From: Candidatus Jettenia ecosi
GTDB lineage: Bacteria; Planctomycetota; Brocadiia; Brocadiales; Brocadiaceae
Assembly: GCA_005524015.1 (NCBI GenBank)
Contig: SULG01000007.1
Location: 1 to 64,000 of the forward strand
Length of the DNA stretch: 64,000 nucleotides
Direction: 5' to 3'
Positions 23,141-44,345 of this stretch are shown here, piece after piece. Within the stretch, counting starts at the first letter, position 1. The number at the start of each line of letters is the position of its first letter. A program made the position numbers and the translations under genes. Under the pieces are notes generated by a model. The model saw only the letters and a program-made list of their open reading frames with translations, was not told the DNA's origin and did no database searches.

Positions 23141-23362
23141 TATAGTATCCAGGAGATGAAACCGGACAGAATGTGGAGAAAGTTGATCTTCGGTTGTATG
23201 CAAATGTATGGAATCCTTAAAAATGTCATTGCGAGGGTATTGTCCGAAGCAATCCTTTGCATGTTTCAGAAGAGATTGCTTCGGGAAAACCCCTCGCAAT
23301 GACCGGTGGGGTGGTCTCTCCTCTGTTGAGAATATGTTCGGTTTCATCCTTGAAGTACTATA
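23141..23362. repeat. A-type inverted-repeat element with 'cattgcgagg' core
   Basis: Ends are tatagtatccaggagatgaaaccgg and cggtttcatccttgaagtactata, matching the A-type termini. The core is the palindrome cattgcgaggg…ccgaagcaatc…gattgcttcgg…cctcgcaatgac, a repeat type widespread in bacterial intergenic DNA. The element at 37584-37815 is its inverted copy with the same core. Confidence 0.85.
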
Positions 23363-37165: not shown

Positions 37166-37504
37166 CTATTTCGAATAGCTATTTGCATGAACCATCGGAT
37201 ATCCTGCTTTTCTCCATGCTTCAACACCACCACCAATGACCTTTGCATTTTTGTATCCTTGCTCAATATATTTTGCTGCCTGACCGACAGCGCTGCTGTC
37301 ATTAGGTCAGGCACAATAGAAAATAATTTCCTTATCCTTAGCAAGTGAAGGAAGCCTGGATTTAAATTCGCTGAACGAAATTGTCTCTTGCAACTGCACT
37401 TGTTTATATTTTGCATCATCCTCATATGCACATACAAGAATGGCCTCATGGGATTCAAGCTTTTTATGAGCTTCTTCCGGAGTAATACGTATAGGTTTTA
37501 TCAT
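37166..37504 (-). CDS. rhodanese-like protein with in-frame UGA at the active site; candidate selenoprotein
   Basis: One continuous reading frame of 113 codons is interrupted only by a TGA at codon 66 (37307-37309). Before it comes KDKEIIFYCA and after it PNDSSAVGQAAKY, IEQGYKNAKVIGGGVEAWRK and AGYPMVHA. This is a rhodanese domain whose expected catalytic loop is YC(A/S)CPNE-like, so the TGA falls exactly where a cysteine is expected. Downstream codons stay rhodanese-like to the natural TAG. A hairpin covers the TGA (37278-37312). Either this is a selenocysteine-containing rhodanese or a nonsense mutant. The ATG is behind a ggagg site (37510-37514). SelA, SelB, SelC or SelD are not in this window. 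Confidence 0.7.
37278..37312 (-). promoter_or_regulatory. hairpin over the UGA codon (possible bacterial SECIS)
   Basis: Read on the minus strand: GCCTGACC, then TAAT, GACAGC, AGC, GCTGTC, GGTCAGGC. This gives an 8-bp lower stem, a 4-base one-sided bulge, a 6-bp upper stem and a 3-base loop, all perfectly paired. The UGA lies in the 5' side of the lower stem. The distance from UGA to the loop is 12 bases, shorter than in E. coli fdhF, so the fit to the known SECIS rule is imperfect. Confidence 0.5.
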
Positions 37505-37583
37505 AATTGTCTACCTCCTGATTTTTTTGAATTGTACATTCTCAAACGACCAAACACATGCTTCTTCTCTGAAATATGTTGTT

Positions 37584-37815
37584 TATAGTATTCCAAGTAT
37601 GAAACCGAACATATCCTCAACAGAGGAAAGACTGTGCCGATGGTCATTGCGAGGGTCTTGTCCGAAGCAATCCTTTGCATGTTTCAGAAGAGATTGCTTC
37701 GGAAAAACTCCTCGCAATGACATGTTTAAGGATTCCGTATGTTCCATACACCTGCATACAACTAAAGATCAACTTTTGCCACATTCTGTTCGGTTTCATC
37801 TCTTGGATGCTATAG
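37584..37815. repeat. A-type inverted-repeat element, second 'cattgcgagg' copy
   Basis: Ends tatagtattccaagtatgaaacc and ggtttcatctcttggatgctatag. The interior is the same as in 23141-23362 but read in opposite orientation (compare caacagagga here with tcctctgttg there). Any frame across it is an artefact of the repeat. Confidence 0.85.
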
Positions 37816-44149: not shown

Positions 44150-44275
44150 GAGCAAAATCAAGGGGCAACTCGATAAGGGCAAACCCTGAGTGATCAGGGG
44201 GCGCAAAGTAAAGGGTCTTGTAACAGTGTGAGTGTCAGTATAAATAACAGACACTTACACTCATAACTGACACTA
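44150..44275 (+). promoter_or_regulatory. probable c-di-GMP-I (GEMM) riboswitch with switching hairpins
   Basis: The core GGGCAAAC at 44177-44184 is followed by stem CCCTGA (44184-44189), a GNRA tetraloop GTGA, stem TCAGGG (44194-44199) and GGCGCAAAG then GGGTCT. That order matches the GEMM-I consensus, including the GNRA loop. Downstream two hairpins are mutually exclusive: 44226-44236 with 44250-44260, or 44231-44239 with 44266-44274. A terminator follows at 44288. No covariance model was run. Confidence 0.6.
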
Positions 44276-44287
44276 TAGAAATAAGAC

Positions 44288-44345
44288 AGCCTTACTGCCA
44301 AAGATGTTTTAAATGAACATTTTTGCAGTAGGGCTTTTTTTATTT
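44288..44345 (+). terminator. rho-independent terminator after the riboswitch
   Basis: Stem agccttactgc / gcagtagggct (11 bp, one G-T) around a 26-base AT-rich loop, then a run of seven T. It could be the regulated output of the riboswitch: whether transcription continues to the Kelch gene at 44898 would depend on it. Confidence 0.75.

Follow-up and report, generated by a model that had tools for sequence, protein, structure and literature searches.

The minus strand of the window (the whole 64,000-nucleotide stretch analyzed here) very probably encodes a single-domain CxU rhodanese selenoprotein of the rhodanese_LYCAU, or "form 3", type. Comparative sequence evidence predicts that its one in-frame UGA is read as selenocysteine (Sec66) by means of a bSECIS hairpin shortly downstream (Table 1). 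The main claim of an earlier note on this DNA, a rhodanese selenoprotein in which UGA stands for selenocysteine, is therefore strongly supported: the selenocysteine genes are present in the genome, and close relatives share the TGA column.

Table 1. Features of the predicted rhodanese selenoprotein gene, in window coordinates
Feature	Position	Strand	Basis or remarks
Rhodanese selenoprotein gene (predicted)	37166..37504	-	112 aa + TAG, UGA read as Sec66
UGA within the frame, predicted to encode selenocysteine (residue 66)	37307..37309	-	Column is TGA in 26 homologous sequences, the present one among them
Ribosome-binding site AGGAGG	37514..37519	-	Sequence; present in both congeners too
bSECIS hairpin GCUGUC-GGUCA-GGCAGC (predicted)	37275..37291	-	Loop 37281-37285, 21 nt after UGA; pairing in 26 sequences
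UGA-containing bulged hairpin of the earlier note; alternative fold, not conserved	37277..37313	-	Folding and pair counts
Cys64 codon, where the canonical catalytic Cys of rhodaneses most likely sits	37313..37315	-	Most alignments; directly after strand 59-63
Cys25 codon, conserved third thiol, nearly invariant motif VCxY	37430..37432	-	Homolog alignment

A rhodanese domain that continues across an in-frame UGA

The reading frame opens with an ATG, 9 bases 3' of the AGGAGG, and its sole internal stop is the TGA. It translates as M...EIIFYCA, then the UGA, then PNDSSAV...GGGVEAWRKAGYPMVHANSYSK and the terminal TAG. When read through, the protein matches the Pfam Rhodanese family PF00581 above the gathering cut-off (E 1.3e-8; 35.7 bits against 22.2), and this match spans residues 41-99, across the TGA. 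Translation and domain match together confirm two points made previously, that the TGA is the only stop in the frame and that rhodanese homology lies on both sides of it. Scans for sigma-70 promoters and terminators around the gene returned nothing above shuffles.

Upstream lies a pyruvate:ferredoxin oxidoreductase gene, separated from the rhodanese gene by about 0.5 kb in the genus and by 81 nt in locus L021. A conserved operon was considered; the end of the oxidoreductase gene was not seen in the flanks of the other copies, and the arrangement was hence not used to assign function. Between the two genes sits one of two copies of a palindromic repeat (37643-37721), with 30-nt arms that are 87% complementary and 19 nt apart. 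The second copy is at 23225-23303, and the ends of the repeat are CTCGCAATGAC. Elsewhere in the window, a c-di-GMP-I-GGC riboswitch aptamer on the plus strand (44169-44303) scores 59.6, barely over the gathering score of 59.

Conservation of the UGA and the selenocysteine machinery

Both congeners, at 88-93% identity, have TGA at the same column, and so do homologs down to about 40% identity. The same family contains 14 copies with TGA at this column, counting the present one and those of the congeners, and three of these 14 are decayed (L025, L026, and L027). Other families of the phylum contribute more UGA copies, as do metagenome-assembled genomes named Nitrospirae, Thermodesulfovibrionia, Desulfobulbaceae, and Desulfobacterales; UGA sequences number 26 in all. 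Five homologs (L028, L067, L068, L071, and L073) are of CxC form, with Cys at the TGA column; neither Cys nor Sec occupies it in two more (L036 and L070). The alignment at this column that had been proposed as a check thus finds TGA in the close relatives and Cys in others. A scan of viral contigs found no relatives.

The sequence 3' of the TGA is conserved among homologs. Between congeners, dN (0.03-0.07) is lower than dS (0.24-0.34) on both sides of the TGA, a test that is weak at so few changes.

The source genome (G000, about 99.98% complete) carries selA, selB, selC, and selD. The tRNA-Sec gene (selC) is on contig C85 (67.8 bits) and is confirmed by ARAGORN, with anticodon TCA. The selA and selB genes are adjacent on C16, with selA over its cut-off and selB at 394.9 bits, and selD is on C26 at 361.8 bits. 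A missing selB or selC had been named as evidence that would count against a selenoprotein; both genes are there. The selD gene (L050; G000:C26:6333-7259) has an in-frame TGA of its own, within the motif GGUAGK and the same in both congeners, so that SelD of this genome is probably a selenoprotein itself.

Among the other genomes with an intact UGA copy, selA or selB is found over cut-off in every one except those of L034 and L035, where selB, the only gene searched, was not found over cut-off and completeness is not stated. G013, whose UGA copy is without its N terminus, has selA and no selB over cut-off. In G020, which holds a CxC copy, neither of these two genes scores over cut-off. Several genomes of the same family possess selB and no copy of the rhodanese; these genomes, together with the three decayed copies, suggest that the rhodanese selenoprotein is dispensable.

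A covarying hairpin downstream of the UGA

For hairpin analysis, the 26 UGA sequences were aligned without gaps. They have in common a 6-bp stem with a loop of GGUC followed by A, U, or G, starting 21 nt past the UGA; the loop of L033 is GGACU. Pairing is kept in 96.2% of 156 cells, and both sides have changed in four of the six pairs. The covariation score of this hairpin was reached by none of 500 shuffles, slid structures score far lower, and RNAalifold picks the hairpin unprompted. Folding was also run with the 12 nt that follow the UGA left out as an assumed ribosome footprint. Every one of the 26 UGA sequences then forms the hairpin, in some cases one or two pairs longer or shorter, whereas the five CxC homologs do not form it. 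Published limits for a bSECIS are a distance of 16-37 nt after the UGA, a G in the first two loop positions, and an energy of -7.5 kcal/mol or lower (PMC13188914). The present hairpin, with its GGUCA loop at 21 nt and -9.7 kcal/mol, lies within all of them. Considered together, these comparisons support its assignment as the bSECIS of the predicted selenoprotein. The bSECIS of E. coli fdhF is a short hairpin 3' of the UGA with GGUC in its apical loop; the predicted hairpin is like it in form and in the GGUC loop but unlike it in stem sequence.

The earlier note had instead described an 8+6 bp bulged hairpin that encloses the UGA. As a fold, this is real and strong: with a 4-nt bulge and a 3-nt loop, it is the minimum-energy structure of the isolated strand (-24.9 kcal/mol; z-score near -5.6; equaled by 0 of 200 shuffles), and in the isolated RNA of the present gene it is favored (-24.4, against -9.7 for the bSECIS hairpin by itself). 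As the SECIS of this selenoprotein, however, it is very unlikely. It is the best fold only in the present sequence and in L010. Across the 26 sequences only 66.2% of its cells are paired, with 44% in the inner helix, its covariation is equaled by 387 of 500 shuffles, and RNAalifold takes the downstream hairpin instead. A ribosome with the UGA in its A site would also melt a stem that encloses this codon. Part of the outer helix is UGACC paired with the GGUCA loop of the downstream hairpin, and this match partly accounts for the stem. With that hairpin as the predicted bSECIS, the 12-base loop spacing previously regarded as short relative to fdhF does not hold; the covarying loop is at 21 nt, not 12, and the spacing problem is therefore gone.

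Alternative readings of the UGA

A TGA within a rhodanese frame could also be a nonsense mutation or a sequencing error in an ordinary Cys rhodanese, the gene being a pseudogene. The decayed relatives L025, L026, and L027 show that such loss occurs, and locus L029 (G012:C1:1628033-1628311) is likely a case in point. L029 has TGA at the C64 column and Cys two residues on (UAC); it was rejected as a selenoprotein, with no selA and no selB over cut-off in its genome and no hairpin, and its TGA is likely a nonsense mutation or a sequence error. Against this reading of the present gene, the identical TGA recurs across independent genomes, in 26 homologous sequences, selection acts on the protein 3' of it, and a covarying hairpin follows the TGA solely in the UGA forms. 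We therefore consider a pseudogene or sequencing error extremely unlikely.

Decoding of the UGA in another way, with TGA reassigned to Trp or similar, has a negligible probability. We found no support for reassignment in these data; of the 26 open reading frames in the window with 250 aa or more, 4 terminate in TGA, homologs have Cys in the TGA column, and the genome has the complete Sec machinery. A further reading takes the UGA mainly as a stop, so that a 65-aa product is dominant and Sec read-through is minor or selenium dependent. Recoding of UGA in bacteria is indeed partial and depends on selenium supply. However, a 65-aa product would, on the structural model, be a half domain, with the rhodanese fold cut off midway, and the part downstream of the UGA is conserved, which makes a dominant short product improbable. 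Insertion of Sec at residue 66 remains the preferred reading.

Active site and fold

An AlphaFold model, with Cys substituted for Sec, adopts a rhodanese fold (pLDDT 92), and its top PDB matches are rhodanese domains (GlpE, BH2092, and 6mxv). Cys64 of the model comes directly after strand 59-63, which is the place of the catalytic Cys in rhodaneses. Profile alignments with 6mxv and BH2092 put Cys64 on the motif Cys, and an alignment with 3gk5 also favors C64; the phmmer alignment with GlpE, which sets GlpE Cys65 opposite U66, is ambiguous. From the model and these alignments, Cys64 is likely, though not certain, to be the canonical catalytic Cys, with Sec66 at loop position 3 of a C-A-U motif. 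Selenocysteine had earlier been placed at the catalytic Cys position itself; this placement needs revision, since Sec66 is probably two residues past it.

Relation to known rhodanese families

Among NCBIfam models, NF041203 (rhodanese_LYCAU, rhodanese-related (seleno)protein) matches best, at 60.5 bits, which is below the equivalog cut-off of 115. Reviews describe rhodanese_LYCAU, listed as "rhodanese-like domain-containing protein form 3", as a CxU rhodanese with one Sec (PMC13188914, PMC9312934). The present protein shares with form 3 a single rhodanese domain and a YCAU-type motif (Y-C-A-U, here FYCAU) in a small protein, with Sec two residues past Cys. At its score, however, it is left unnamed by the NF041203 model and falls on a divergent branch. 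Judged by sequence, it is very probably a divergent new member of the known CxU selenoprotein family. Ordinary gene callers would stop the protein at residue 65, and its score is below the curated equivalog model as well, so that this branch is likely mis-annotated.

Rhodanese selenoproteins of forms 1, 2, and 4 have the motifs UxxS or UxxG (PMC13188914). They too carry Sec in the active-site loop of a rhodanese domain, but their Sec, judged by the listed motif, is at the first loop position, where the present protein has Cys64, its own Sec being at position 3. Other single-domain rhodaneses, among them E. coli GlpE (1gmx), are alike in fold (Foldseek E 6.7e-5; TM 0.73-0.76). Unlike the present protein, GlpE has a single catalytic Cys (C65), its loop position 3 being neither Cys nor Sec.

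Proposed mechanism

Comparative sequence evidence backs the recoding of the UGA. With the ribosome at this codon, SelB carrying Sec-tRNA-Sec would bind the bSECIS hairpin, whose GGUCA loop is 21 nt downstream, and Sec would go in at residue 66, to give a mature active-site loop of C64-A65-U66. For catalysis, we infer that C64 takes up sulfane sulfur as a persulfide, like other rhodaneses. The Sec66 selenolate could then resolve the C64 persulfide to a selenenylsulfide, which cellular thiols or thioredoxin would reduce, and the protein may act as a persulfide or polysulfide reductase or transferase.

Distant homologs with two in-frame UGAs

Five distant homologs from five genomes (L030, L066, L069, L072, and L074) have TGA-x-TGA, giving UAU or UGU. 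These homologs keep a single hairpin with a GGUC loop, 27 nt past the first UGA and 21 nt past the second, and selA or selB is over cut-off in their genomes. G094 holds one CAU copy and one UAU copy. A second Sec has probably arisen here at the canonical catalytic Cys position, with one bSECIS serving two Sec codons six bases apart, which would yield a diselenide-capable U-x-U rhodanese. We found no description of a "UxU" rhodanese in the open-access literature. One small domain thus occurs in nature as Cys-x-Cys, Cys-x-Sec, and Sec-x-Sec, some forms having the hairpin and some lacking it, a compact set in which to test the contribution of Sec to sulfur-transfer chemistry and the means by which a single bSECIS can direct two neighboring UGAs.

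At locus L030 (1945-2256), the UAU rhodanese and a YHS domain form an in-frame fusion. No further in-frame TGA occurs in the YHS part before the stop, and this part matches NF041384 (YHS_seleno_dom) at 44.9 bits, below the cut-off.
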